Origin: Syntrophorhabdaceae bacterium
Lineage (GTDB): Bacteria > Desulfobacterota > Syntrophorhabdia > Syntrophorhabdales > Syntrophorhabdaceae
Assembly: GCA_017992765.1 (NCBI GenBank)
Contig: JAGOOA010000020.1
Coordinates: 1-47,072 of the forward strand
DNA: 47,072 nt
Direction: 5' to 3'
Translations under genes and position numbers: made by a program
The notes under the pieces: generated by a model
Database searches by the model: none
Told to the model about the DNA's origin: nothing
Seen by the model: only the letters and a program-made list of their open reading frames with translations
Shown here: in pieces, positions 20,898-39,489 of the stretch
Numbering within the stretch: the stretch's first letter is position 1
Layout of the letters: each line of letters begins with the position of its first letter

Positions 20898-22268
20898 TTA
20901 TGGTGAATAAGGGTGTATGGAGATGCCGTATTCCTTGAGCTTCTGCCGCAGCGTGGGACGTGATATCCCGAGAAGCTTGCAGGAATTTCCGAGGTGCCAG
21001 CGGGCGTGGCTTAGCACCTTCAGGATGTGTTCCTTTTCGATCTCCTGGAGGCTTAATATATTCAGAGCGCCCTTTCCCGCTGCCGCCTTGTCTTCCCTGC
21101 CAAGCAACGGAGAGATAAATTCATCGAGGATAACCTCGCCCTGCGTGGTGATCGCCGCACGGGTAAGGATGTTCTCAAGCTCCCTTACGTTGCCCGGCCA
21201 GTCATAATTCATAAGCCTGTGCACGGCCTTCTCTTCAACCCTTTTGATGCTCCGGTGCAGTTCTGCATTGATCTTCCTGATTATATATTCAATAAGAAGC
21301 GGGATGTCGGATCTCCTCTCTCTTAAAGGGGGGACATCGATGGCCGCTACGCTGAGCCTGTAATAAAGGTCTTCCCTGAAGCTTCCGTTCTTGACCATCT
21401 CTTTCAGGTCCTTGTTCGTCGCCGCGATGACCCTCGCATTCGATTTAAGGTTTTTTTCGCCGCCCACGTGCTCAAATTCCTTCTCCTGGAGGAACCGCAG
21501 CAATTTCGCCTGCAGCTCGAAGGGTATCTCGCTTACCTCATCGAGGAATATCGTCCCGTCGCCTGCAAGCTCGAATTTTCCTTTCTTCGAAGCTATGGCC
21601 CCGGTAAAGGAACCTTTCTCATGTCCGAAAAGCTCGCTTTCAAGCAGCGTTCCCACAATGGCAGAGCAGTTGATGGCGAGGAGGGGCTGGTCCTTGTAAG
21701 GGCTGTGGTAGTGGATGGCCCGCGCGATAAGCTCTTTCCCCGTGCCGGTCTCTCCCTGGATCAGGACTGTGACCATATTTTCCGAAAGCAGCCCTATGGA
21801 TTTGAATATCTCCTTCATGGTCCTGCTCTTCCCGATTATCTTTCCCTTCTCGTACATAGACGACGGGTCAAGCGAGATCGCGTCGGCGCCGCGCCTTAAG
21901 CTTCCGACCTTTAATGCCCTGTCTATGGCCTTTTCCAGTTCCTCGATATCGATAGGCTTCGGGATGTATTCGCAGGCGCCGAGCTTCATTGCCGTGATCG
22001 TCGTCTCCATGTCGTGGAACGCGGTAATGATGATGATATTTTTCTCGCTGTGCCTCTGCTTCAGCTCCTGCAGGACATCAAGGCCATTTTTGTCCGGCAG
22101 GCGGATATCGAGGATCACTATATCGGGGCTGAACGAGGCGTTCTTCTTTATCCCCTCGGCCGCGGAAAGCGCGCAGCACACATCGTAGCCCTTCTCGCTC
22201 AGAAACATCTCAAGCGATTCGAGGAGGGATTGTTCGTCATCGATGATAAGTATCTTCTTTTTTCTCAT
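20898..22268 (-). CDS. NtrC-family sigma54-dependent response regulator
   Basis: 456 aa. A receiver domain (1-120) has the acidic pair IDDE and phospho-Asp in DIVILDIRLPD, with KP at the end of the domain. The AAA+ domain (about 145-375) has Walker A GETGTGKE, the sigma54-contact loop GSFTGA (usual form GAFTGA) and Walker B GTIFLDEVSE. A Fis HTH ends the protein (ARWHLGNSCKLLGISRPTLRQKLKEYG). It activates sigma54 promoters on phosphorylation by the kinase encoded just upstream, whose stop it overlaps by ATGA. Confidence 0.93.
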   Translation of the reverse strand: MRKKKILIIDDEQSLLESLEMFLSEKGYDVCCALSAAEGIKKNASFSPDIVILDIRLPDKNGLDVLQELKQRHSEKNIIIITAFHDMETTITAMKLGACEYIPKPIDIEELEKAIDRALKVGSLRRGADAISLDPSSMYEKGKIIGKSRTMKEIFKSIGLLSENMVTVLIQGETGTGKELIARAIHYHSPYKDQPLLAINCSAIVGTLLESELFGHEKGSFTGAIASKKGKFELAGDGTIFLDEVSEIPFELQAKLLRFLQEKEFEHVGGEKNLKSNARVIAATNKDLKEMVKNGSFREDLYYRLSVAAIDVPPLRERRSDIPLLIEYIIRKINAELHRSIKRVEEKAVHRLMNYDWPGNVRELENILTRAAITTQGEVILDEFISPLLGREDKAAAGKGALNILSLQEIEKEHILKVLSHARWHLGNSCKLLGISRPTLRQKLKEYGISIHPYSP

Positions 22269-23779
22269 GCCGTTTTCCTGGCCGGTATTGTGAGGTACAC
22301 ATGTGTACCCTGGGGCTTTCTCAGCACCGTATGCACGGTCCCCCCGTGCGCCTCCATTATCTTCTTTACGTTGGAAAGCCCGAGCCCGGTCCCTTTTTTC
22401 TTGTTGCTGAAAAATGGGTCGAAGATGTAAGGCAGGTCATCCGGGCTTATGCCGGGGCCATTATCAAGGATCTCTATCTGTATCGTCCCTTTGTCTTTTG
22501 CTTCCTGTTTGGTGATAATGATGATCTCGCCGCCTGTCTGCAGCGCCTCGACAGAATTGAGGATCACATTGATTATCGCCTGCTCTACCCTGTCATGGTC
22601 CAGAAGGATGCCGGGGATATCTTTCCCGTATCTCTTTTTCACGCGTATGCCCTTTTCTTTCATCCTCACATCCACGATCTCAAGGCATGAATCGATAATG
22701 CCATGAATGGAGACGGGGTCGAGGTTGATCCTTATGGGTTTCGCAAAGTTGAGCATCTCGTCGAGGATCCTTTCGAGCCTTGACGTTTCGCTGAAGATGA
22801 TCTCCATGCGCCTCTTGTCGTTGCCGTTAAATTCCGTATTCTTAAGGATTATCTGGCTGTTCATCTTTACCGACGACAGGGGGTTCCTTATCTCGTGCGC
22901 CAGGGACGTGGTGAGCTTCCCGATATGGGCAAGGCGCTCGGATTCCCTGATCCTCCGTTCGGTCTCCATCCGTTCCGTAATATCACGGCAGATCCCCGCT
23001 ACCGCTTCTTTGCCCTGGTATATGATGCGTTTTACCTTGTTCTCTGTGGGGAAATGGCTTCCATTCTTGTGTCGCCGGTAATACATATAAAGGTCCCTCG
23101 CGTCCTCCCCGATCATCCTCTGCTCGTAGAGCCTCTTCACCGCATGCAGGTACTTTGGCGCCAAAAGGTCCGTGTACGGCTTCCCGATGATCTCCTGCAG
23201 GGTATACCCGTGGAGGTCGCAGAAGGCCTGGTTTGCGAAGACAATGTTCCCGTCCTGGTTCACAAAATAACCGTCGTTGATCTCCTCGACAAGGACGCGG
23301 TACTTCGCCTCTGATTCCCCAAGCTCTTTCGTCCTTTCCTCCACTTCCTGCTCAAGGTTCTGTGCGTGGTTCCTTATCTGTTTTTCATGGAGAGACTGAA
23401 AGAAGTCGCTGAATTTCGTGATCGTGTAGAAGAGGCATCCGTTCAGCTTCTCCATGGCGCGGAGAAGCTCATCTCCCTTTAGCTCCTTTACCATGACCGG
23501 GAAAAGCGTGGTCCTGTAAAGCTCGTATGCGTGCTGCACCTCTGAGAGTGCAAACCCGCCCCTAAGGCGGATCTGTGAGATCCAGTGAATATGGCAGTCT
23601 ATCTTTGAAAAATCATTATCGATAAGGACCGCGCAGCTTGCATCATACGCCGCGGCGACGGTAATGTAAAGTTCATCCCGCGACCGCCTGCTGTAGCGGC
23701 GGCTCACTGCCAGAAGGCGATCGATCCATTCCTCGATGATCCGGTCGCGGTACTTTTTCAGGACCTCAGCGGTATCCAC
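22265..23779 (-). CDS. PAS-domain sensor histidine kinase with RsbR-like N terminus
   Basis: 504 aa, no membrane segments. Residues 1-140 form a helical RsbRD-like sensor region. A coiled coil (QNLEQEVEERTKELGESEAKY) leads to a PAS domain (about 165-280, FANQAFCDLHGYTLQEIIGKPY). The kinase core follows: H-box SLAHEIRNPLSSVK with phospho-His, N-box NVILNSVEAL and G-boxes DNGPGI and GTGLGLSNVKKI. It is cytoplasmic and probably senses a soluble ligand or redox state. The start is GTG with a weak ribosome site. Confidence 0.9.
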   Translation of the reverse strand: MDTAEVLKKYRDRIIEEWIDRLLAVSRRYSRRSRDELYITVAAAYDASCAVLIDNDFSKIDCHIHWISQIRLRGGFALSEVQHAYELYRTTLFPVMVKELKGDELLRAMEKLNGCLFYTITKFSDFFQSLHEKQIRNHAQNLEQEVEERTKELGESEAKYRVLVEEINDGYFVNQDGNIVFANQAFCDLHGYTLQEIIGKPYTDLLAPKYLHAVKRLYEQRMIGEDARDLYMYYRRHKNGSHFPTENKVKRIIYQGKEAVAGICRDITERMETERRIRESERLAHIGKLTTSLAHEIRNPLSSVKMNSQIILKNTEFNGNDKRRMEIIFSETSRLERILDEMLNFAKPIRINLDPVSIHGIIDSCLEIVDVRMKEKGIRVKKRYGKDIPGILLDHDRVEQAIINVILNSVEALQTGGEIIIITKQEAKDKGTIQIEILDNGPGISPDDLPYIFDPFFSNKKKGTGLGLSNVKKIMEAHGGTVHTVLRKPQGTHVYLTIPARKTA

Positions 23780-24959: not shown

Positions 24960-25814
24960 TCAGGCAACTTCCTTTTCCTTCCCCTTTCTGACCACGGCCC
25001 TTTGCCCTTCGGGTAGGGGCGGCGGTACCGCCTCGCCGACGATCTTCGTCACGGCGCGGAACTTTGGAGGGCATACCTCAAAGCATGTCCCGCATTTTAT
25101 GCATTTGTCCTGATCGACAATGTGCACCTGGCCCTTGGCGCTTATGATCGCCTCCACGGGGCATCTCCTGGCGCAGGTCATGCAAGCCTGGCACTTCTCC
25201 GGGTCAATGTAGTAAGAAACTACTTCTTTAAACAGCTGATCAACCTCTTCTTTGGTGAAGACCTCTTCATACTTCTCATATTCTTCGTGGCCTTCGAGGC
25301 GCGTTGCCAGCTTCTCCCGTTTCGCTATCTTAAAATAGGGCGTCAGCCTTGTAACCTCTGCGAGCTTTGAATGCAGCCTATCCTGGTCCATCCCTTCCGC
25401 TGTGCCGAGCGGCCCCATCTCCTTTATCTTCTTCACAAAATCGTTGACGCTTTCGACAAAAACGTTTGCCTCGGCGCCGGACATGAACCTGATCCTCAGT
25501 CTTTCCGGGTTAAGCCCTATATGCTCCAGTATCCTCCGATAAAGAAGGACCATGTTAAGCGTATGGTAGTTCCCGTGCGTAACATAGTTGCATTCGCCAA
25601 GATGGCAGGCGCCGATAAATACCCCATCGATTCCCTTTGAAAAGGCCCTGATGATAAATTCCGGATCAACCCTTCCGGAACACATGACGCGAATGATCCT
25701 CATTTCAGTGGTATATTGCAGTCTGGAAACTCCAGCCAGGTCAGCAGCTCCGTACGCTCACCAGTTGCATGCGAAGCCGAGCACTTTCGGTTTGAACTTA
25801 GATCCTGAACTCAT
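24960..25814 (-). CDS. bamF: BamF-like MvhD/FlpD electron-transfer subunit, selenoprotein
   Basis: 284 aa if TGA at 25758-25760 is read as selenocysteine (residue 19). Starting at ATG 25814 after GGAGG, the protein reads FKPKVLGFACNW-Sec-AYGAADLAGVSR and continues in frame into MRIIRVMCSGRVDPEFI. Homologues have CNWC or CNWU here, the [2Fe-2S] site of the FlpD domain that receives electrons from HdrA. Other conserved cysteines are MCSGR and GACHLGECNY. Two [4Fe-4S] motifs (CQACMTCARRCP, CIKCGTCFEVCP) follow at about 208-250. In class II benzoyl-CoA reductase complexes BamF works with BamE. It starts 33 bp after bamE. Reading only from 25703 would lose the first 37 residues. Confidence 0.88.
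25723..25735 (-). promoter_or_regulatory. Candidate bacterial SECIS hairpin in bamF
   Basis: Beginning 23 bases after the UGA, CUGGA and UCCAG form a perfect 5-bp stem with loop GUU. Bacterial SECIS elements place a GU in the apical loop some 16-37 bases after the UGA, as here. Confidence 0.6.
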
Positions 25815-25847: not shown

Positions 25848-28800
25848 TTATTTGCCGGCCGCTGCATCGATCTGCCCGATGATATCTTCTTCCGGGACGA
25901 TTACATCGACCTCGGCCAGCAGCTCTTCGTCGGTAAAATGCTTCAGTGAAATAGCCCCTGTGGGACACTTCGAGTTGCAGAGGCCGTCGCCTTTACAGAG
26001 GACAGGGTTTATCGTCGCCTTCTTTCCCTGTTTTGTATCGTAAAGGTCCAGGGCGCCATAGGAACAGACCTCAACGCATGCCCCGCACCCCATGCACCTC
26101 TTCTCGTCGATCTCACAAACAGAGCCTGAGGCTACGACGATATCATTTGCGAGAAGGGTTAACGTCCTGCCGGCGGCCCCGTAAGCCTGGTTGACCGTTT
26201 CCTGTATGAACTTCGGATAGTGGGCCAGCCCGCAGAGGTAGACGCCGTCCGTCGCAAACTCGACAGGTCTTAATTTGACATGGGCCTCCTTGAAGAAGCC
26301 GTCTAAGCTCAGCGTCACCTTGAAGAGATTGGCGATCTCTTTTGTCGCTGCCGAAGGGACAACGGCGGCAGCCAGTGCGACGATGTCGGCGTCGAGCTCA
26401 AGCTTCTTGCCGAGGATATAATCCGTCGCGGTCACCTTGAGAACAGGCCGGCCGTCCTCTGCCTTGCCGGGCTCCACCACGGGCGGATCCTCCGGCTCGT
26501 AGCGTATGAACCTTACGTCCTTGCCTGCCGCTTCCCGGTAGTGATCCTCTTTGAACCCGTAGGTCCTTATGTCCCGGAAGAGGATATAGACGTCCATCGC
26601 TGGGTTCTTCTCTTTGAGCAGAAGCGCGTTCTTTATGGACTCGCTGCAGCATATCCTGCTGCAGTAATTCCTGTCCTCGTTCCTGCAGCCGACGCACTGG
26701 ATCATCACGAGGCTCTGCGCCTTCGCGACCTTTTCGTCCCCGTTGAAGATCTTCTCTTCCAGCTCAAGGTGGGTCATGACCCTCTCGTCCTGCCCGTAGA
26801 GGTATTCGGTGGGCGTATAGAGGTCGGCGCCGATTGCAATAACGGCTGCGCCGTGCTTTATCTCCGTGATACCCCGGTCAGACTTCACCGTAGTGACGAA
26901 GTTCCCCACATATCCCTTTGCCTCCGTAATTGCCGCATCGGTATACACATGTATCAAGGGGTGCCTGTAGATCTTTCCTGCGAGGTCGCGCAGGTAGGCC
27001 TGAACATCCAGCCCCTCAAGGGTGGTATGGATCTTCCGCGCGATCCCGCCGAGGTCGCTGTCCTTTTCGATGAGGTAGACCTCATGCCCCTGGTTGGCTA
27101 TGGAGAGGGCGCTGGTCATGCCGGCTATGCCTCCTCCTACCACCAGTGCCCTCTTGTCGACGGGCAGGTCAAACTCCTGCAAGGGCTTCAGGTGGCACGC
27201 GCGGGCTACCGACATCCGTATTATATCGTGGGCCTTTTTAGTGGCCTCTTCCTTTTCTTTTGCGTGGACCCAGGAGTTATGCTCCCTGATGTTCGCCATC
27301 TCGTAGTAGTACTGGTTGATCCCCGCCTCCCTGAGGGTGTCGCGGAATAACGGCTCGAGGGTCCTGGGGGAGCATGCAGCGACAACCACCCGGTTGAGCC
27401 CCTTTTCCTTTATCATGTCCGTTATCTCCTTCGCGGAGTTCGTGGCACACGAGAAGAGCTGTTCCTGCGAGTAGACGACATTGGGCAAGGTCTTGCAGTA
27501 TTCGACCGTTCCGGGGACATCCACTATCCTTCCGATATTTGCCCCGCAATGGCACACAAAGACGCCTATCTTCGGCTCCTCCTGCGAGACGTCCTTTTCT
27601 TCCGGATATATCCTCTCCTTGGCAAGGTTCCCCCGTCTGTGCTGAAGGAGCTCGCCGATCTGTGAGCTTGCCCCGCTGGCGCTGAAAACCGACTCGGGGA
27701 TATCGATGGGGCCCTGTAGGGCGCCGCTCACAAAGACCCCGGGCCTGTTTGTTATCATGGGATTGACGGGGTCAAGGTTGCTGAACCTGTGCGCGCTGAG
27801 TTCAATGCCGTATTTCTTTGCTATTTCTTCTACGTCCTTAGGGGGATTCATTCCGATCGACAGCACCACCATATCGAACTCTTCTTCTTTGACCCCGTCG
27901 TCCGGGGTAGAATACCGTACGGTCACATTCTTCGTTACGGGGTCCTCTTTTACTATGGACGTGTAGCTTCTGAAGAAGCGAATGCCGGGAAGGTTCTCGG
28001 TCCTCTGGTAGTAGCGCTCAAAGTCCTTCCCGTAGGAACGGACGTCGTTGTGGAATATGGTGCACTTCGCCTCTGCGTCGTGGTCCTTCGTCAGGATCAC
28101 CTGCTTCTGGGTATAGGTGCAGCATACGGCCGAGCAATAGCTGTTGCCGCCTTCGATAACCTGCCGGGAACCAACGCACTGGATCCATGCTATGTTATGG
28201 GGATGCTTCATGTCGGATGCCCGGAGTATCTCGCCGGCATAGGGGCCCGTGGAGCACAAAAGCCGCTCGAAGTCCATGCTCGTCACCACGTTCTTGAACT
28301 CCCCGTAGCGATACTCCTCCCTTACCTTCGGATCAAAGGGCTCAAAGCCCGGGGAAAGAACTATGGCTCCTACATTTATTTCCTTCTTCTCCGGCTCTTG
28401 ATTGAAATCTATGGCATTATTCTTACAAACCGCCTCGCAGATGCGGCATTTCTTCTCTTTCAGGTAAAGACAGCTCTCATCGATATATGTGATAAGCGGA
28501 ATCGCCTGAGCGAAGTATACATGGACAGCCTTGTTCTTCGATATCTCCTGGTTATATTGATCAGGGTACACTACCGGGCAGTATTCAACGCAGGTAGTAC
28601 AACCAGTGCATTTGTCTTCCAGGATGTACCTGGGCTTTTTCGTTATTGTTACCTTGAAGCTTCCCGCCTCACCTTCCACGCTGTTGACCTCTGTGTAGGT
28701 GAGAACCTCTATGTTTGGATGCCGGCCGACCTCGACCAGTTTAGGTGCGAGTATTCACATCGAACAGTCGTTGGTCGGAAAGGTCTTGTCGAGCTGGGCC

Positions 28801-28985
28801 ATGTGACCTCCGATGCTCGGCGCCTTTTCAACTAAGTAAACCTTAAAGCCGGCGGTGGCAAGATCAAGAGATGCCTGGATGCCGCTGATGCCCCCTCCGA
28901 CAACCATGACGTCCCCGAAATTACCGCCTCCAAGATTCTTACAAAGTTGCTGAATATTGTCTTTGAGCGATATTACGTTATCCAC
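25848..28985 (-). CDS. bamE: BamE-like double HdrA flavin/Fe-S subunit, selenoprotein
   Basis: 1045 aa if TGA at 28755-28757 is read as selenocysteine (residue 77). GTG 28985 follows GAGGTGAT. The first HdrA unit has [33 protein letters not shown][12 protein letters not shown] and a ferredoxin motif [13 protein letters not shown] second HdrA unit starts near residue 610 with [16 protein letters not shown], and two [4Fe-4S] motifs ([24 protein letters not shown]) end the protein. In HdrA the residue replaced here is a cluster-ligand Cys, and Sec there is known in some archaeal and bacterial HdrA. BamE is the proposed FAD electron-bifurcation/confurcation subunit of class II benzoyl-CoA reductase. 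Without readthrough the frame would break into 76 and 943 residues. Confidence 0.9.
28722..28739 (-). promoter_or_regulatory. Candidate bacterial SECIS hairpin in bamE
   Basis: Beginning 16 bases after the UGA, CUGGUC pairs with GGCCGG (four Watson-Crick or better pairs plus G-U pairs) around a GAGGUC loop. The loop resembles the AGGUCU loop of E. coli fdhF SECIS, and its GU lies about 25 bases after the UGA. Confidence 0.65.
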
Positions 28986-29020: not shown

Positions 29021-29821
29021 CTAATTCCTTGAACAGCCAAGCCTCTCCGGGTGGGTGAACACCGCCAGGCTATTGCTGCGCACCTGGCCGACCAGGGCGA
29101 TGCCCATATCGCTTGCAAGCGAAATTGCCCTCCCCGTCGGCGCATGCCGCGAAACAACGATCGGAACCTCCATCTTTGCCGCCTTGAGCAGCATCTCAGA
29201 CGAGATACGGCCGGTGATCAACAGCAGCCGATCCCTCGACGATATTCCCCTCAGCAAGCATTCTCCCTGTATCTTATTCAGGGTATTATGCCGTCCGATG
29301 TCCTCAGCTACAATGAGCAGCTTCTTTGTATCGGACAGGGCTGAAGTGTGCACTCCACCGCTAAGCCGGTACAGTTCCATCTGAGCCTGAAGCTCTTTCA
29401 TCAGCGACAGCACTTCCATCGTCGTAACGACAAGATCAGAATCTACCTTCCGGCCTTGATTCTCGAAAACTCCGCCGCCGCCGCAGCCCGTGGCCAGCGT
29501 CTTCACCGTCGGCGGTTCATATCCGGCGTTGGAAAGCGTCACGTCGGCCAGCGAATCATCCTCGCAGACCCGCATTATCGCCACATCGCCGACGCCTGAG
29601 ATGATCCCCTCTGCATAGAGGTACCCTATGACAAGATAATTAAGCTTCGCCGGAGTGCACAGGATGTTTACCAGCGCCCGGTTATTGACATAGATCGTGA
29701 GCACCATCTCGGTAGGCACGTGAGCCGGAGTCCTGGTCCATCCTCCATCGTCCGAAAAGCGGTCGCATACTATCTCTGCCGCGACACCTTTTATATTCGT
29801 TAAGCCGGTTGTTTCCTGCAT
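29021..29821 (-). CDS. fdhD: FdhD-family sulfurtransferase inside the bam operon
   Basis: 266 aa. Recognisable FdhD segments are PTEMVLTIYVNN, NYLVIGYLYAEGII, TLATGCGGGGVF, LSGGVHTSAL, AEDIGRHNTLNKIQGECLL and VSRHAPTGRAISLASDMGI. FdhD transfers sulfur from a cysteine desulfurase to the Mo/W-bis-pterin cofactor of formate dehydrogenase. The Cys loop here has one cysteine (TGCGGGG), not the CxxC of E. coli. No formate dehydrogenase is in the window. Its place between bamD and bamE suggests a role in maturing the tungsten cofactor of BamB, which is inference. Confidence 0.88.
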   Translation of the reverse strand: MQETTGLTNIKGVAAEIVCDRFSDDGGWTRTPAHVPTEMVLTIYVNNRALVNILCTPAKLNYLVIGYLYAEGIISGVGDVAIMRVCEDDSLADVTLSNAGYEPPTVKTLATGCGGGGVFENQGRKVDSDLVVTTMEVLSLMKELQAQMELYRLSGGVHTSALSDTKKLLIVAEDIGRHNTLNKIQGECLLRGISSRDRLLLITGRISSEMLLKAAKMEVPIVVSRHAPTGRAISLASDMGIALVGQVRSNSLAVFTHPERLGCSRN

Positions 29822-29839: not shown

Positions 29840-30991
29840 CTACAGCACTTCCTGTATGATCTCTGTGATGTCCTTGACTTCTATATCGTCGGCATGATTC
29901 GTGACCAGCCTGCTGTCCTCAAGGGCGGTGATGCAGTAAGGGCAGGCGGTAGCCAGCACCTGTGCCCCAAGCTCAATGGCCTGCTCAACCCTGATATTGG
30001 AGAACCTTTCATGCTTCTCCGTTTCCGCCCAGACCCTGCCTCCCCCCATTCCGCAGCAGAGGCTGTCTGTGCGCGCCTCGGGCAGATCGACCAGCTCAAG
30101 GCCGGGGGCCTTCTTTAAGACGTCCCGGGGCTCGTCATATACACCGTTATGCCGTCCCAGATAGCACGGGTCATGATAGGTGACCTTCTTCGCATACTCC
30201 TTTGAGAGCTCAAGCCTCCCCTCATTGACGAGCTGGAACACATACTGGGAGATGTGGATCACTTCGAAGTTCACATTGAACGCCGGGTACTCGTTCTTGA
30301 AGGTGTGGTAGCAGTGCGGGGAAGAGACGAGTATCTTCTTCACCCCGTTGTCGATGAAGGTCTTGATGTTCTCTTTCGCCAGCTTTCTGAATACTTCCTC
30401 GTTGCCTGTCTTGCGGATGCTTTCCCCACAGCAGTTCTCCTTTTCACCGAGGATCCCAAAATCCACGCCTGCCTTGTTGAGGATATTGGCCGTTGCCTGC
30501 GCCACCTTCTTCAACCTCGGGTCATAGCTGCAGTAGCAGCAGGGAAAATAAAGGATCTCCATCCCCTCTTTAAAGGTCTTTACGTTCAGGCCCTGCGCCC
30601 AATCAGCCCTTGTCTTCCGGTCTTCGTTGAAAGGGTTGCCTTGCGCCGTCAGCCCTGAGCTTATTGCGCGGTAAGGCTTGACGGAGCCGTGAAAAACGCC
30701 GTATCCCGTGGCCATCCTCCGCAGGGCTATCATGTCGTCTATCTGCTTTACGTCCCTGGGGCACCGCTGAGGGCACTTGCCGCAGGTGGTACAGCGCCAG
30801 ATATCCTCGCGCTCTATCTCGCTCAAACCGAACGTGGCCTCCCGGATGAGCTTGCGCATGCTGAAATTTCTCACCTTGTTCCAGGGGCACACGGTATCGC
30901 ACTTTCCGCATTGATAACAGAATTTGACGGGGTCTCCGCCTTTCTCTTTTACCTCGTCTATTACCTCTTTAAAGGGGGCTATGGTTTCCAC
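29840..30991 (-). CDS. bamD: BamD-like HdrD/CCG-domain Fe-S electron-transfer subunit
   Basis: 383 aa. Two ferredoxin-type motifs at the N terminus (CYQCGKCDTVCP and CTTCGKCPQRCP) are followed by two CCG domains: CCYCSYDP...ENCCGE (about 152-190) and YHDPCYLGRHNG...SLCCGMGGG (about 272-318). This is the HdrD/GlcF/BamD architecture. In the class II benzoyl-CoA reductase it passes electrons between BamE and BamC/BamB. The start is GTG after AGAGGAT. A 97-bp gap with a repeat-like sequence separates it from bamC upstream. Confidence 0.88.
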   Translation of the reverse strand: METIAPFKEVIDEVKEKGGDPVKFCYQCGKCDTVCPWNKVRNFSMRKLIREATFGLSEIEREDIWRCTTCGKCPQRCPRDVKQIDDMIALRRMATGYGVFHGSVKPYRAISSGLTAQGNPFNEDRKTRADWAQGLNVKTFKEGMEILYFPCCYCSYDPRLKKVAQATANILNKAGVDFGILGEKENCCGESIRKTGNEEVFRKLAKENIKTFIDNGVKKILVSSPHCYHTFKNEYPAFNVNFEVIHISQYVFQLVNEGRLELSKEYAKKVTYHDPCYLGRHNGVYDEPRDVLKKAPGLELVDLPEARTDSLCCGMGGGRVWAETEKHERFSNIRVEQAIELGAQVLATACPYCITALEDSRLVTNHADDIEVKDITEIIQEVL

Positions 30992-31088: not shown

Positions 31089-31628
31089 TCAGTCTTTCTG
31101 CGAGATCCGGGAAACGGTATCCATGACCTTCTGCAGGCCGTATTTGTTTATCATTGATTCCAACCCTATCTCCACATCCTCTACCTTTACCTCTTCGTCC
31201 ACTTCTTCTTCCCTTTCTTCATAGATCAGGGCATCGTTGAGGCACCATTCAACACACAGGGGCTTTTCTCTTGGCGGGTCGTCTTCGCACATATCGCATT
31301 TGAGAGGAAGGCCGGAATCGGGCTCTTTGAACGCGTCCCTTGACGGGCAGGCAGCCCTGCAGAAGCCGCACTCGTCGTATTCCTTCCCGTCAATAATATA
31401 TTTGTCCCTGCCCATACATTCGGCCGCAGTATACTCGCCTGCATATACGGGAACGTAGACGTCTCGCATCGGGTCGCGTATCATCCGGATGCGGGACCGC
31501 GCCGGGTTATTGCTGCTGTATTTCGGGTTGGCGTGAAAGGCTGAGCAGATCACTTCGCATGCCCGGCAGCCATTGCATTTATCAAGGTCGACTTTGATTG
31601 TTTTGATCTTCTTTTTAATCTTAGCCAT
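31089..31628 (-). CDS. bamC: BamC-like polyferredoxin subunit
   Basis: 179 aa with ferredoxin cysteine groups in the order CNGCRACEVIC (about 18-28), CGFCRAACPS (about 86), CDMCEDD and CVEWCLNDAL (about 109-128). This is the pattern for three [4Fe-4S] clusters of the BamC/DMSO reductase B type. The C-terminal 45 residues are acidic. It overlaps the end of bamB by 8 bp, fitting a tight BamB-BamC pair, as in the purified Geobacter enzyme. Confidence 0.88.
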   Translation of the reverse strand: MAKIKKKIKTIKVDLDKCNGCRACEVICSAFHANPKYSSNNPARSRIRMIRDPMRDVYVPVYAGEYTAAECMGRDKYIIDGKEYDECGFCRAACPSRDAFKEPDSGLPLKCDMCEDDPPREKPLCVEWCLNDALIYEEREEEVDEEVKVEDVEIGLESMINKYGLQKVMDTVSRISQKD

Positions 31629-33585
31629 TTTTTATTATCCCTCTCTGTTCTAAGTCTTCGGCAACATAGCCCAGATCTAATTCCTGCAAGGTCTCTTTCT
31701 TGGGAACGCCTTCATTATCCCATCCCTTGAATTTGTAGTAGGCATCCAAAAGCTGGGCTTCAAGTTCGGGAAATCGTTTTTTCCAGTGGTCCTCAGGCGG
31801 CACCTCATCGGCCCTTCTCAACCCTCTTCTGACATTTACCGCCCTGAGCAGATTCCGGTTCCTCCTGTATATCTTCTTGAGGCCTTCCTCGTCCATATCT
31901 ATCCCTGTTGCTGCCGAGATGATCTTCGGATAATTGTGAATATGATAAGGGGGCTTAAGAGGAAAAGACGATAAACCCGCACATACCCCGAGGGCATCGT
32001 CAAAGTAATGTATCATCTCCTGCCAGTCGACGATGTCAACGGACATGTCAATGGTAGGATAATACGGGTTTGAGCGCTCTCCGCGAAATTCCCAGTCAAG
32101 GACGATCTGTTTAAACTTTTCGTCAGGAACCTGGATCCAGTCGCTGATAAATTCCTGCCTCTCTTCCATGGTAGCAAAAGGCGACTGGGGGAACTGCCCT
32201 TCGATCTGTGTTATATTTATCTTCTCGCCCGTCGCATACATAAGGTAATAAACGGGGTTCAGCATCCCGAGTTTAAGAGGAAGCTGCTCATGCTTCTTGA
32301 TGTTGTTGTGGGCAAATTGTTCTGCACCCTTTCCGATCTTCTGGGCCGCCCAATGGGTGCCGTCGGCCAGAATGTCTCCTATCCCTTCCCTGCGAACTAT
32401 CCTGTCGAGCAGCCAGTAGAATTTCCCTTCGTTATCGGACGGGCATCCTTCGAAATCCGCATCGGTCAGAATACCGGCCTCTCTCAGCTCAAATGCAAAT
32501 GCCATGATCTGCGGGGTTGAGAACCCGTCCACTCCGTACTCCGTAGCACGCTGAGCGATCTTGAAGCCAAAATCCAGGTCGTCTACAAAGGCTGCCATTG
32601 TATAGGTAAGCTTCGAGAAGCACTTCATCATGTAGGTCGAAAGCCCCGGCACGGAAATGATCGCCCCGCATTTCATCGGGCAGTTATAGCAGCTTATCAA
32701 CCGCTTCCGCACATTCAGCTGGACACTTTTCCATCGCTCTTCGATCTCCTTATTCCAGAAGTCTTTTCGACGAACGCGGGAATTGCCCCACATGAAATTT
32801 TCGGTGTGCCACTTCTCATCGACGTGCAGCATCTCCTGCGGCGATCCAAGCCCCTGCAGAATGGTCATTACGTTGGGAACAGGATTGTCGTTCCGGAATT
32901 TTATATATTTCAGCACCTCGTTGCAGAGCTCTATGAACTCAGCCGGTCTGGCCAGGTTGACGTCCTTTGTACCGCGGACAGCTATCGCCTTTACCCCTTT
33001 GTCTCCCATAACGGCACCCAGCCCAAGCCGACTGGCACTGGAGCGGCCCTGTTCGATAGATGCGGTAAATACCCTGTTCTCACCGGCAAGGCCGATAGCG
33101 GCCACCTGCGCATTCGGCTCGTTCAACTCCTTCCGGATAAGCTCCTGCGTCTCGACAGCGCCTTTACCCTTGAGGTGGCTGGCATCCCGTATCTCCACTT
33201 TGTCATTGTGTATCCATATATAGACCAGGCTGGGCGACTTGCCGCGAAGGATCACTTTGTCGTAACCTGCATACTTCAATTCCGGCGCCCAGAAGCCTCC
33301 CATCATTGAATATCCCATTAATAAGGTCTGGGGGGAATAGGCGGTTATAATAGTACGGTTCGCGCCGGGGGCAGGCGTACCACCCAAAAGTCCTGTGCTG
33401 AAGATCAATGGAATTTCCGGCGCAAAGGGGTCGATCTCAGGGGGAACCCTGCTCCATAATATCTTCGTGTTCGTGCCTAACCCGCCAAGATGAAGTTCGG
33501 TGTCTCTGGGATCAGTCTCTACCCTCTCAATATTTCCCTTGGTTAGATCAATTTCTAAATTAAACCCTGTTTCTCCGTACCTCAT
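31621..33585 (-). CDS. bamB: BamB-like class II benzoyl-CoA reductase active-site (W-pterin) subunit
   Basis: 654 aa of the aldehyde:ferredoxin oxidoreductase family, the same length as BamB. It shows GGLGTNTKILW, GYSMMGGFWAPELKYAGYDKVIL and SRLGLGAVMGDKGVKAI. The Fe-S ligands LISCYNCPMKCG are near residue 300 and DALGVCAGLSSFPLKPPYHIH near 533. BamB carries a tungsten-bis-pterin and reduces benzoyl-CoA to cyclohexa-1,5-diene-1-carbonyl-CoA without ATP. It is the first gene of bamBCD-fdhD-bamEF. A paralogue acting on a substituted or polycyclic aryl-CoA is possible. GAGGAG precedes the ATG. Confidence 0.9.
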   Translation of the reverse strand: MRYGETGFNLEIDLTKGNIERVETDPRDTELHLGGLGTNTKILWSRVPPEIDPFAPEIPLIFSTGLLGGTPAPGANRTIITAYSPQTLLMGYSMMGGFWAPELKYAGYDKVILRGKSPSLVYIWIHNDKVEIRDASHLKGKGAVETQELIRKELNEPNAQVAAIGLAGENRVFTASIEQGRSSASRLGLGAVMGDKGVKAIAVRGTKDVNLARPAEFIELCNEVLKYIKFRNDNPVPNVMTILQGLGSPQEMLHVDEKWHTENFMWGNSRVRRKDFWNKEIEERWKSVQLNVRKRLISCYNCPMKCGAIISVPGLSTYMMKCFSKLTYTMAAFVDDLDFGFKIAQRATEYGVDGFSTPQIMAFAFELREAGILTDADFEGCPSDNEGKFYWLLDRIVRREGIGDILADGTHWAAQKIGKGAEQFAHNNIKKHEQLPLKLGMLNPVYYLMYATGEKINITQIEGQFPQSPFATMEERQEFISDWIQVPDEKFKQIVLDWEFRGERSNPYYPTIDMSVDIVDWQEMIHYFDDALGVCAGLSSFPLKPPYHIHNYPKIISAATGIDMDEEGLKKIYRRNRNLLRAVNVRRGLRRADEVPPEDHWKKRFPELEAQLLDAYYKFKGWDNEGVPKKETLQELDLGYVAEDLEQRGIIKNG

Positions 33586-35287: not shown

Positions 35288-36163
35288 TCAATTATGCCGG
35301 CTGCCGCTGGCCGATGCGTCGGATTCCTGCCGCTTGCAGAAACCATCGGCATACAGGGCTGCGCCCAGGGCCGGTATCAATGCAGGATCCCATTCAGGGC
35401 CGGGGGCCAGCCTGCCTGCCTTCAGGATGCCTTCCACCAGGCTGACTATTCCTGGATTCCTGGCCAGCCCTCCAATGATGACAAAATCCTTCTTCATGCC
35501 CAGCCTGTCTACCAATGTGCTGATCCTCCTGGCCATAGCGTAGTAATAGCCCGCTATCAGCTGTTCTATCGGTACCTTGCTCCGGATCAGATCCAGCGCT
35601 TCGGACTGCGCGTATACGGCGCAAAAATCGCTCAGCTTTGGAAATTTATCAGACCGGAGCGCGATCTCCGCCGTCTCAGCCATGTCTTTCCCGACCAGGC
35701 CTCCGAACGCCTCCATCGACCTTCCGATGCCCGCTGCGCATTTGTCGTTCCAGAGGAATGCCGTTGCCCTGCCCTTTTCGGTACAGTGAATTACCCTGCA
35801 GCTTTGCCCCCCGGCATCGAGCACCGTACGGACCGACGGGCCACATACCCGCAGCGCCCCCGCGGCGGCGCATGCGATCTCCGATACCGCCTTATGTGCA
35901 AAGGTCGCCTGCGCGCTCCCGCGGCCGGTCGCGACGATGCAATGGATATTCTCCGGCTTTAAACCGGTTCCGTTGAGAGCCCCGCTCATAGCATCCAGGG
36001 CCGATCCTTTGGGCGTCCCGGTCGTCACCTGAGAAGATGCATAGGGTTGCCCGTCAAGCAGCAGCAGCGCCTTGGACGTCACCGCCCCGATATCGACGCC
36101 CGCCGCGATCACCTTGGCCTTTTTCCAATCCAGTTTTTTATTCATTGAAATATGCCCGCTCAT
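35288..36163 (-). CDS. Class I benzoyl-CoA reductase ATPase subunit (BcrD/BzdQ-like)
   Basis: 291 aa of the BadF/BadG/BcrA/BcrD ASKHA ATPase family. The phosphate loop is AAGVDIGAVTSKALLL, followed by GRGSA, VLDAGGQS and GGLARNPG. Cysteines in NDKCAAGIG and DFCAVYAQSE would hold the [4Fe-4S] cluster shared across the ATPase dimer. It couples ATP hydrolysis to low-potential electron delivery to the catalytic subunits. It overlaps the upstream paralogue by ATGA. At this length it resembles the shorter ATPases of the Azoarcus (Bzd) type. Confidence 0.87.
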   Translation of the reverse strand: MSGHISMNKKLDWKKAKVIAAGVDIGAVTSKALLLLDGQPYASSQVTTGTPKGSALDAMSGALNGTGLKPENIHCIVATGRGSAQATFAHKAVSEIACAAAGALRVCGPSVRTVLDAGGQSCRVIHCTEKGRATAFLWNDKCAAGIGRSMEAFGGLVGKDMAETAEIALRSDKFPKLSDFCAVYAQSEALDLIRSKVPIEQLIAGYYYAMARRISTLVDRLGMKKDFVIIGGLARNPGIVSLVEGILKAGRLAPGPEWDPALIPALGAALYADGFCKRQESDASASGSRHN

Positions 36164-36954
36164 CTTCCACCTCCGTAACTCACTACAGCGCCTATTGCGC
36201 CCACATACTCAGGAAGGCTCACCACGCTCACCTCTCGTTCTATCAGACGCTGAAGGTGGTTAATGACCGCTTGAGACCTGGCCAGCCCTCCGGCTACCAC
36301 GATCTCTTTCGTAAGGGGCATACAGGTGGACATGGCGGCAACGCGCTCGACCATGAACCTGGTGACGGCATCTGCTACATCCGCAGCGTCCGCGCCCTGG
36401 CACATAAGATCAATGGCATCCGATTCGGCGGAGAGGGCGCACTGAATGGCAACAGCTATGCTCTTTGTCGACTTAAGCGCCAGCCGGGACAGCTCTTCCT
36501 CGCTAACCCCCAGCAGCTTCGCCATACTCGTGTAGAAGATGCCCAGGCCGTCGGCGCATTTGTCGTTTTGAATGACGTCCAGCAAATCCCCGTTCTGGTC
36601 ATAGCTCATCGCCTTATGTACGTTGCCGCCGATATCGATGACCGTTCTCGAGTTGCCGTTGAGGAAAAAAGCCCCTTTTGCATCCGCTACGTATTCGGGC
36701 ACCGATGCGGCCGCGTCAAGAGCCGGCGCCTTGATGGCATCCCTGAATATCCCCGTGGCGACGATGCCGTTCAGTTCGCCTCCGGAAATGCCTGCACCTT
36801 TCAGGGCATCATTTAACGCTGCCCGGGCCGCCGCCGCCGGATCACATGCCGTGGGGACCGCGGCATAAGCAAGGATCTCCCTGCCCTTCATTATTATGGC
36901 CTTCGTATTGATGTGGCCCGCATCCAGTCCAGCGAGAAGTTTTCCGTTATTCAC
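36160..36954 (-). CDS. Class I benzoyl-CoA reductase ATPase subunit (BcrA/BzdP-like)
   Basis: 264 aa of the same ASKHA family, clearly diverged from its neighbour. Motifs are LLAGLDAGHINTKAIIM, VATGIFRDAI, VIDIGGNVHKAM, NDKCADGLGIF and VAGGLARSQAV. The first cluster cysteine is kept in NDKC; the second site reads IQCALSAESDAI. Two different ATPases are the hallmark of class I aryl-CoA reductases, since 2-hydroxyacyl-CoA dehydratases use one homodimeric activator. It overlaps genes on both sides by four bases. Confidence 0.87.
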   Translation of the reverse strand: MNNGKLLAGLDAGHINTKAIIMKGREILAYAAVPTACDPAAAARAALNDALKGAGISGGELNGIVATGIFRDAIKAPALDAAASVPEYVADAKGAFFLNGNSRTVIDIGGNVHKAMSYDQNGDLLDVIQNDKCADGLGIFYTSMAKLLGVSEEELSRLALKSTKSIAVAIQCALSAESDAIDLMCQGADAADVADAVTRFMVERVAAMSTCMPLTKEIVVAGGLARSQAVINHLQRLIEREVSVVSLPEYVGAIGAVVSYGGGR

Positions 36955-38117
36955 GGCGTCACCCCCTTTATTATTTCAACGAGCGCGTCCAGCTGCGCCC
37001 GAAATTGAGCTTTTGGCACGGTGGTATCAAGCTCAAGCTCCGTCGATGGGATTCCCAGCTTATCGACGATGGGTTTCAGCGCTACGACGTCCATCGGCTG
37101 AGGGCTGCAGAACCTCTGGTAGAGGAACACCACCCCATCAGGCTTGAAGTCCTCGATGAACTGCTGAACGAACCTGAACCTCTTTTTTTCGCCGGTCCCG
37201 GGGACGGTATCCTTTGCGGGACAGGGGATCTTGCCGATGTATCCCTCGGCGAGCGCCTTAAGCTTATCCGGCCTGCCCTCGGGCACCTCGAACCAGAAGT
37301 ACCTGGCGGCCGTACAGGAATCAATGAAGATAAGGCTTGCGTCATAACTCAGATGTTCCATCAGGTCGAAGATAACCATGTCGTCGCAGGCGCCCCCCGT
37401 AACCATCAGCCGAACCCCCGGCGCCGCCTTGCCGGGCCCGGCCTCCAGCCTTTCGATCAGCTGCTCCAGCATCTCATTGCATTCCTGCTTGTCCATAACC
37501 TGAGAGGCCAGTGTCGCGGCGGCGACATCCGGGCCCGTTATGGGCGGTCTGTCATGCCTCAGGAACTCCCAGAGGTGCTTGAGGAGCCTCCGGTTGTGGT
37601 TATAGGCCTTGATCGCATCCTCCAGGTCGTTGTCCGTTACCGGCTTTTTTGTAAGCTTCTCGACGAATTCTCTGAACTGTGCAAAAGACTCTGTCATGAA
37701 CCCGCCGGCAGGCTTCGTGTGAATGATATGAGGGTACTGCATGAGGTAGCTTCTGTCCTGGAACCCCGCGAACCTCACCCATACGTTGAACGCTTCGCCC
37801 ATATGGATGCAGCTGCTGCTCGTAACGATCAGGTCCAGGTGATCATAATTGCCCTGCAGCCCCTGGTAGGCGCAGTCATGGGAAAAGGAGCAATACGTTT
37901 CATGGATATAGCCCCTCGTCATTGCCTGAGACTCATGGGACGTAAGGATCCTCAACGGTACGATCCCTGCCGCATAGAGGATCTCCTCCGGGACATGGGT
38001 GCACATATATCCTGCCAGGAGCCGCCCTTTCGCCTTAAGGGACCTGGCGTATTCTGTCGTATTCTCCGTTATATGGCGAAACCGTTCGATTATCGCATCT
38101 GGGCCCTTTTTCTCCAT
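36951..38117 (-). CDS. Class I benzoyl-CoA reductase catalytic subunit (BcrC/BzdN-like)
   Basis: 388 aa of the HgdB/BcrC family. The N-terminal GYMCTHVPEEILYAAGIVPLRI is a family hallmark carrying a cluster-ligand cysteine. Further cysteines occur in SSSCIHMGE, GGACDDM and YQRFCSPQPMD. With the 438-aa partner it forms the Fe-S heterodimer that binds aryl-CoA. The length fits BcrC (about 386 aa). It starts 3 bp after its partner gene and overlaps the ATPase gene. Confidence 0.87.
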   Translation of the reverse strand: MEKKGPDAIIERFRHITENTTEYARSLKAKGRLLAGYMCTHVPEEILYAAGIVPLRILTSHESQAMTRGYIHETYCSFSHDCAYQGLQGNYDHLDLIVTSSSCIHMGEAFNVWVRFAGFQDRSYLMQYPHIIHTKPAGGFMTESFAQFREFVEKLTKKPVTDNDLEDAIKAYNHNRRLLKHLWEFLRHDRPPITGPDVAAATLASQVMDKQECNEMLEQLIERLEAGPGKAAPGVRLMVTGGACDDMVIFDLMEHLSYDASLIFIDSCTAARYFWFEVPEGRPDKLKALAEGYIGKIPCPAKDTVPGTGEKKRFRFVQQFIEDFKPDGVVFLYQRFCSPQPMDVVALKPIVDKLGIPSTELELDTTVPKAQFRAQLDALVEIIKGVTP

Positions 38118-38120
38118 CTG

Positions 38121-39437
38121 TCATGCACCTCCTTTCTTATGCGCTTCCATGAGATGTACGAACAACTCCGTTTTCCGCTGGGCGCCCGGCAGGTCCATTT
38201 TCCGGACATCTACCTGGTCGGTATCGTATTCAACGGTCGGGATCTGGTTTTTGAAGATACGCTGCATCGCTATATAGCCGTTCCTGAAATCCGTTTCGCA
38301 ACTGCGGGAAGGCGCAAGCAAAAGCCCGTCGGCCTTATACTCTGTCACCATCGCCTTGGCCATCTCTTCAAGCGCCCAGTACGATCTCACCCCCTGCCAG
38401 GTTGGCCAGCCCAGGACTATTTTAGCCAGCTCGGTTATGGCCTTTCTTCTCGTTGACAGGTCAAGCTCGTCGACCCAGGCAGGGTCTATGGGTTCCCACG
38501 TCCACTTTCCGTTGACGATCCCCTTGAAGTTGCCGCAGGTGCCGAATGTATAGACCGAGGCTACGATCTCGGCCCCGACGTCCCTCAAGATCCTCGCCAT
38601 TTCCGGATGGCCGTACGTGTGCGCTATCCCGAAATAGACTATCCTGAAGCGCTGGTCCGGCGCCACGCTCTCCCCTGTCTCGACCATGTGCTTCACTTCT
38701 TTCAGCAACGTCTCGTATATGCGCACGCTTTCATCGGTCGTCCTGTCCACAACGGCCGGCGGGAACAAGGCTATAAGCCTCCGCTCATCCAGCGGCGCCG
38801 GGGAATGCATGTTGAGAGCGCATATATTGCCCCACAGGACAAGCACCTTGATCTCGTTCCTCACCGCCTTGACAAACAGCTCGTCGGAAAACTCCCTGCC
38901 GGTCACCCTCTGGAGCCACTCTATGCCGGCCTCTATCTGGTTGGAGACGTAGTTGACGATCTTCGGGTCTTTCTCCGCATTCCCCCCGCCGACCATGTCT
39001 ATCGCATACATCGGCACGCCGCCCAGGCGCCTCGAGACCTCCTGGTACCACTTTGAATGCTGGCTGCACAGGTGCGTGGTCCAGATCACGTCCGGCCTCG
39101 GATATCCGTCCTTGATCGTTTTATCGGTAATAGCCATTTTGTCGCGGATCACCTCGCCGACGAACAGCTTGAGGTAGCTGCACGAGTGAAACCCAAGGCC
39201 GCCGGTCTCAGCGGCGATAATGTCCTCGCGGCACTCTGCGGGCACCGTCCCTGCCGCTGACGCCGAGTGAGGTTCGCCGCCTATCACGCGTATGTCTTCG
39301 CCCAGCCCTTTAAGGGGAGCGAGCGGGCTCCAGGTAGAGCCCATGCATCGCAGGCCACCCGAGGCATAGAGATAGTCCCTGTAGCAGTTGTTCTGGTAAT
39401 TCTTTACTTCGCCCCACGTCGTTATGTTGTATGCCAT
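38121..39437 (-). CDS. Class I benzoyl-CoA reductase catalytic subunit (BcrB/BzdO-like)
   Basis: 438 aa from ATG 39437, fixed by an AGGAGG site upstream; a longer frame from 39464 is unlikely. It is a second HgdB/BcrB-family protein with SGGLRCMGSTWSP, GLGFHSCSYLKLFVGEV, WTTHLCSQHSKWY, FGTCGNFKG and LLLAPSRSCETD as cysteine sites. Its length matches BcrB. It is the first gene of the four-gene operon and follows a strong promoter with an operator. Confidence 0.87.
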   Translation of the reverse strand: MAYNITTWGEVKNYQNNCYRDYLYASGGLRCMGSTWSPLAPLKGLGEDIRVIGGEPHSASAAGTVPAECREDIIAAETGGLGFHSCSYLKLFVGEVIRDKMAITDKTIKDGYPRPDVIWTTHLCSQHSKWYQEVSRRLGGVPMYAIDMVGGGNAEKDPKIVNYVSNQIEAGIEWLQRVTGREFSDELFVKAVRNEIKVLVLWGNICALNMHSPAPLDERRLIALFPPAVVDRTTDESVRIYETLLKEVKHMVETGESVAPDQRFRIVYFGIAHTYGHPEMARILRDVGAEIVASVYTFGTCGNFKGIVNGKWTWEPIDPAWVDELDLSTRRKAITELAKIVLGWPTWQGVRSYWALEEMAKAMVTEYKADGLLLAPSRSCETDFRNGYIAMQRIFKNQIPTVEYDTDQVDVRKMDLPGAQRKTELFVHLMEAHKKGGA

Positions 39438-39489
39438 CTCAACCTCCTGTCCAAAATATATCAATATCTTCTTTGGTTGGTATCAATAT

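Follow-up and report, generated by a model that had tools for sequence, protein, structure and literature searches.

Loeffler et al. reportedly described, in the abstract of a 2011 article in Environ Microbiol, that BamF contains selenocysteine (Sec) in every class II benzoyl-CoA reductase, and BamE in many of them. FlpD/MvhD (PF02662) and HdrA are among the known families of selenoproteins and have CxxU motifs, and Syntrophobacter fumaroxidans possesses multiple genes for Sec-containing HdrA and FrhD (PMC13188914; PMC1794560). The remark of the first-pass annotation of this DNA that Sec is known in MvhD/VhuD-type proteins was in agreement with these reports. Furthermore, the genome paper of Desulfococcus multivorans described Sec in HdrA, MvhD and BamE (PMC5109826), and the class II benzoyl-CoA reductase has been hypothesised to lower the electron potential by bifurcation (review, PMC12054007). 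In our study, the window was the whole stretch of 47,072 nucleotides from a Syntrophorhabdaceae bacterium (contig JAGOOA010000020.1), and its features are given in Table 1. The main reading is that bamF and bamE of the class II cluster are both selenoprotein genes, each with a UGA and a bSECIS hairpin decoded by SelB and tRNA-Sec. The probability of this reading, in which incorporation in vivo is inferred, was put at about 96%.

Table 1. Positions of the bam genes and of the candidate selenocysteine signals in the window.
Feature	Position	Strand	Description or basis
bamF	24960..25814	(-)	FlpD/MvhD domain + 2x[4Fe-4S] ferredoxin-like domain, 284 aa with Sec19
bamF hairpin, bSECIS-like, (GG)CUGGA-GUU-UCCAG(AC)	25720..25737	(-)	Core stem 23 nt past TGA; frozen synonymous codons
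bamF in-frame TGA, read as Sec19, second position of CxxC	25758..25760	(-)	Frame and homologue column
bamE	25848..28985	(-)	HdrA-like flavoprotein, 1045 aa, GTG start 28985 behind GAGGTGA, Sec77
bamE hairpin, bSECIS-like, CUGGUCG-AGGU-CGGCCGG	28722..28739	(-)	16 nt past TGA; frozen synonymous codons
bamE in-frame TGA (the second), read as Sec77, TNDCSM-U-ILAPK	28755..28757	(-)	Frame and homologue column
fdhD, sulfurtransferase for Mo/W cofactor enzymes, between bamD and bamE	29021..29821	(-)	
bamD, HdrBC-like, CCG domains	29840..30991	(-)	
bamC	31089..31628	(-)	Match to 4z3w chain E (G. metallireducens BamC), E=7.7e-83
bamB, tungsten active-site subunit	31621..33585	(-)	Match to 4z3w chain A over the whole length, 1131 bits, 653 aa

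Because BamB and BamC matched the solved Geobacter enzyme over their full lengths, the sequence comparison assigned the operon to the class II (ATP-independent, tungsten) benzoyl-CoA reductases. The name bamF, given in the first-pass annotation, was supported by these two matches and by the place of the gene within a bamBCD-fdhD-EF cluster. The gene order bamBCD-(fdhD)-EF was conserved, and bamBCD neighbours recurred beside the Sec pairs. No bamGHI (diaphorase) subunits were found among the annotated genes of the window. The position of fdhD between bamD and bamE was also observed in seven relatives (L025, L029, L032, L033, L039, L047 and L060), and this placement suggests a role in the maturation of BamB. 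In addition, four class I (bzd-type)-like subunit genes (Q, a second activase, N and O; 35288-39464, minus strand) adjoined the class II cluster, all of them scoring too low for true Bzd subunits by the NCBIfam cut-offs. Downstream of the bam genes (20898-23779, minus strand), an AtoSC-like sensor kinase and a sigma-54 response regulator were present, and these were kept in the closest relatives.

The frame of bamF ran from the AAAGGAGGTGGAAACGC-ATG start at 25814, behind a GGAGG site, to the terminal TGA at 24960. The internal TGA (25760-25758) was codon 19 of 284, in the context FACNW-U-AYGAAD. BamF showed a domain match to PF02662 (E=7.6e-48), with ferredoxin-like clusters after it. Against the solved MvhD (5odc, E=6e-44), the N terminus was aligned and the TGA fell on the second Cys of CNWC, a match that fixes the fold of BamF. 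The mechanical ORF calling started at ATG 25703 instead and gave 247 aa, which was 37 residues fewer. The first-pass annotation had pointed to the upstream frame with its ATG and GGAGG site, to the TGA on the second Cys of the FlpD/MvhD motif and to the 37-residue loss, and all of these were borne out. Its claim that the shortening would delete the [2Fe-2S] site held in part: C16 and Sec19 were removed, but C45, C70 and C75 were kept, and the conserved Cys set was thus damaged, not wholly deleted.

The selenoprotein reading of the operon had been limited to bamF. It was supported for that gene but incomplete, as bamE, directly upstream, was a second selenoprotein gene that had been missed. The ORF callers gave a BamE of only 943 aa (25848-28679), 102 residues short. 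The frame extended upstream through a single TGA (28757-28755) to the GTG at 28985, which lies 35 nt past the fdhD stop. This TGA was at the CxxC/CxxU site of HdrA (CSMU), where the homologues carried TGA or Cys. Therefore, bamE was read as encoding a 1045-aa protein with Sec77, with two selenoprotein genes adjacent to each other.

The bamF column was counted in 80 related loci from public genomes together with the window, and 79 copies were readable. The codon was TGA in 76 of the 79 and TGC in three, with no other codon, and every readable homologue had Cys or Sec at the column. Two loci in which the column seemed absent (L083 and L147) had masked bases and no real loss. The readable copies came from Desulfobacterota, Bacillota, Chloroflexota and other bins. 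Furthermore, when 395 genomes of the phylum were swept, most close bamF matches had one in-frame TGA. The search of a plasmid collection returned no full-length relatives.

Among the 80 closest loci, the bamF/bamE pairs were either Sec/Sec (63, a few counted twice) or Cys/Cys (13). The strict coupling drawn from these loci was dropped, since wider sampling added 13 pairs with Sec in BamF and Cys in BamE, which had bamBCD neighbours wherever the flank sufficed. The Cys/Cys pairs had the motifs CNWCCYGGAD and CSMCIESPKF and were mostly without bamBC neighbours in the flanks examined. Their origin by loss of the Sec machinery was rejected; SelA was present in every checked genome with a Cys/Cys pair, and they were therefore regarded as distinct gene variants. 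One locus, L196, had a bamBCDEF cluster in which BamE and BamF were all-Cys, in a genome with SelA. It is possible that L196 encodes a class II-like enzyme free of selenium, or that its BamB is a paralogue with another function. A pair with Sec in BamE and Cys in BamF was seen neither in the closest loci nor in the wider sampling, and for this reason Sec-BamE might occur only with Sec-BamF. Selenium use in BamE-BamF would then be hierarchical and coupled, with the two selenols acting as a single low-potential relay that is particular to BamBC-linked enzymes, a tentative proposal that we regard as rather unlikely. If it were true, the few BamBC-linked all-Cys clusters, such as L196, would be natural selenium-free variants.

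The stem with a GUU loop that had been reported 23 bases past the bamF TGA was present as described (CUGGA-GUU-UCCAG). In bacterial selenoprotein hairpins, a G stands among the first two loop bases, and this was the case for both the GUU loop of bamF and the AGGU loop of bamE. The minimum free energy was uninformative as a test of the bamF hairpin, which showed no excess of stability over synonymous shuffles (mean z +1.1 in 84 Sec genes, that is, less stable), and synonymous constraint was analysed instead, as the deviation from the genes' own codon usage in bits. For bamF, the Sec genes had a mean of 1.69 bits at codons +4 to +14 compared with 0.27 elsewhere, while the Cys homologues had 0.66 and 0.30, respectively. 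For bamE, the values were 0.94 bits after the TGA and 0.21 elsewhere in the Sec genes, and 0.25 and 0.24 in the Cys homologues. The constraint downstream of the TGA was thus higher in the Sec genes and weaker or absent in the Cys homologues. The frozen stretches were GCT GGA GTT TCC AGA, one freer codon and CAA in bamF, and CTG GTC GAG GTC GGC CGG CAT in bamE. Such constraint at the TGA-proximal codons is as expected of a coding-region bSECIS, and it is decisive. The evidence for the bamF hairpin is conservation and not thermodynamic stability; the bamE hairpin had a modest stability excess (mean z -0.94). Covariation was nearly nil in both hairpins, which is because the elements are almost invariant and can hardly be scored, and the Rfam search for the SECIS family gave no match. 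As the bamF column held TGA or TGC throughout and the synonymous codons were frozen at the hairpin, the TGA was not there by chance, and it almost certainly encodes selenocysteine.

In the genome, selB, selC (tRNA-Sec, at the end of contig C29) and selD were all found. There were two different Sec-type selD genes (L170 and L171, on contigs C63 and C70), each with an in-frame TGA in GAGUASK. With this machinery present, and with Cys or Sec at the bamF column, the Sec19 reading stood. In the same genome, an FlpD gene on the minus strand of contig C48 (L172) also had an in-frame TGA (FCCEY-U-GYTAADLAG), and its predicted product is a second selenoprotein of the MvhD type, encoded away from the bam cluster. 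SelA, which the first-pass annotation had also named, had no match in the 95%-complete assembly, so Sec could be encoded here while the machinery was non-functional in the strain through a true loss of selA; one other genome of the genus likewise had no SelA match. However, SelA was present in the other five of the six further same-genus genomes and in 19 of the 21 genomes that were searched; a sister genome has selA in a 14-kb neighbourhood that was missing here as a block, and the tRNA-Sec lay at a contig end. Since most relatives have SelA and the whole sister region is missing as well, a gap in the assembly is the best explanation of the absence, and a true loss is quite improbable.

The remaining alternatives concern the TGA itself. 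The mechanical call would have bamF start at ATG 25703, with the TGA closing a short upstream frame and no selenocysteine. This is very improbable, as residues 1-37 are the conserved FlpD N terminus that aligns to MvhD in PDB, dozens of species have the upstream frame open with the TGA in place, and the GGAGG site lies ahead of ATG 25814. A sequencing error, or a recent nonsense mutation that made bamF a pseudogene, has hardly any likelihood: no point in its support was found, and it was refuted by conservation, the TGA being at the same codon in the 95%, 91%, 78% and remoter homologues from independent assemblies and being matched by the TGA in bamE. The number of genes with in-frame TGA in this genome (bamE, bamF, the two selD and another FlpD) might also be explained by reassignment of TGA as a sense codon for Trp or Gly. 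However, all of these genes belong to known Sec families and carry the TGA at Cys columns, the stop of bamF is itself TGA, most genes of the window are intact under table 11, and tRNA-Sec is present; the chance of reassignment is accordingly negligible.

Under the preferred reading of bamF and bamE as selenoprotein genes, SelB and tRNA-Sec would decode each UGA, followed by its small coding-region bSECIS hairpin, as selenocysteine, and the products would be BamF with Sec19 in the FlpD CxxU motif and BamE with Sec77 in the HdrA CxxU motif. Judged from their families, the HdrA-like BamE and the MvhD-like BamF would correspond to the electron-transfer partners that surround the FAD in electron-bifurcating complexes of the HdrA type. 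BamE (FAD/[4Fe-4S]) and BamF ([2Fe-2S] FlpD plus ferredoxin domain) would feed low-potential electrons to BamBC. The most likely role of Sec19 and Sec77 is to tune or to ligate redox centres of this presumed BamE-BamF electron path, and a selenolate that replaces the thiolate at the CxxC site in either partner would shift the potential or reactivity of the adjacent centre.

ORF callers that take TGA as a stop shorten both redox subunits of a central enzyme of anaerobic aromatic degradation, BamF by 37 and BamE by 102 residues. The paired TGA and the two frozen hairpins provide a clean metagenome marker for selenium-dependent class II benzoyl-CoA reductases, and the natural Sec/Cys series is available for probing the reason for selenium in BamE and BamF.

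Compared with known systems, the Sec pair of this cluster is well supported and fits a known pattern in a known enzyme family, and the finding is less novel than first judged. The pattern has become sharper in our analysis: the pair types were F-Sec/E-Sec, F-Sec/E-Cys and Cys/Cys, and never E-Sec/F-Cys. Like the class II enzymes of Geobacter, Desulfosarcina cetonica and Desulfococcus multivorans, the locus has BamB and BamC that match the Geobacter subunits, and bamD, bamE and bamF in order; Sec in BamE is shared with D. multivorans. It differs from them in the fdhD between bamD and bamE, in having no bamGHI in the window and in the adjoining class I-like bzd genes. BamF shares the CxxU motif in the FlpD domain with the Sec-containing MvhD, FrhD and VhuD (PF02662), but a further 2x[4Fe-4S] domain follows at its C terminus, and its cluster is that of an aromatic-ring reductase and not of a hydrogenase. 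Similarly, the N-terminal HdrA domain of BamE has the CxxU motif (CSMU) as in the Sec-containing HdrA (NF040770-like), whereas BamE is a long HdrA-like form tied to BamBC and not to HdrBC or hydrogenase genes.
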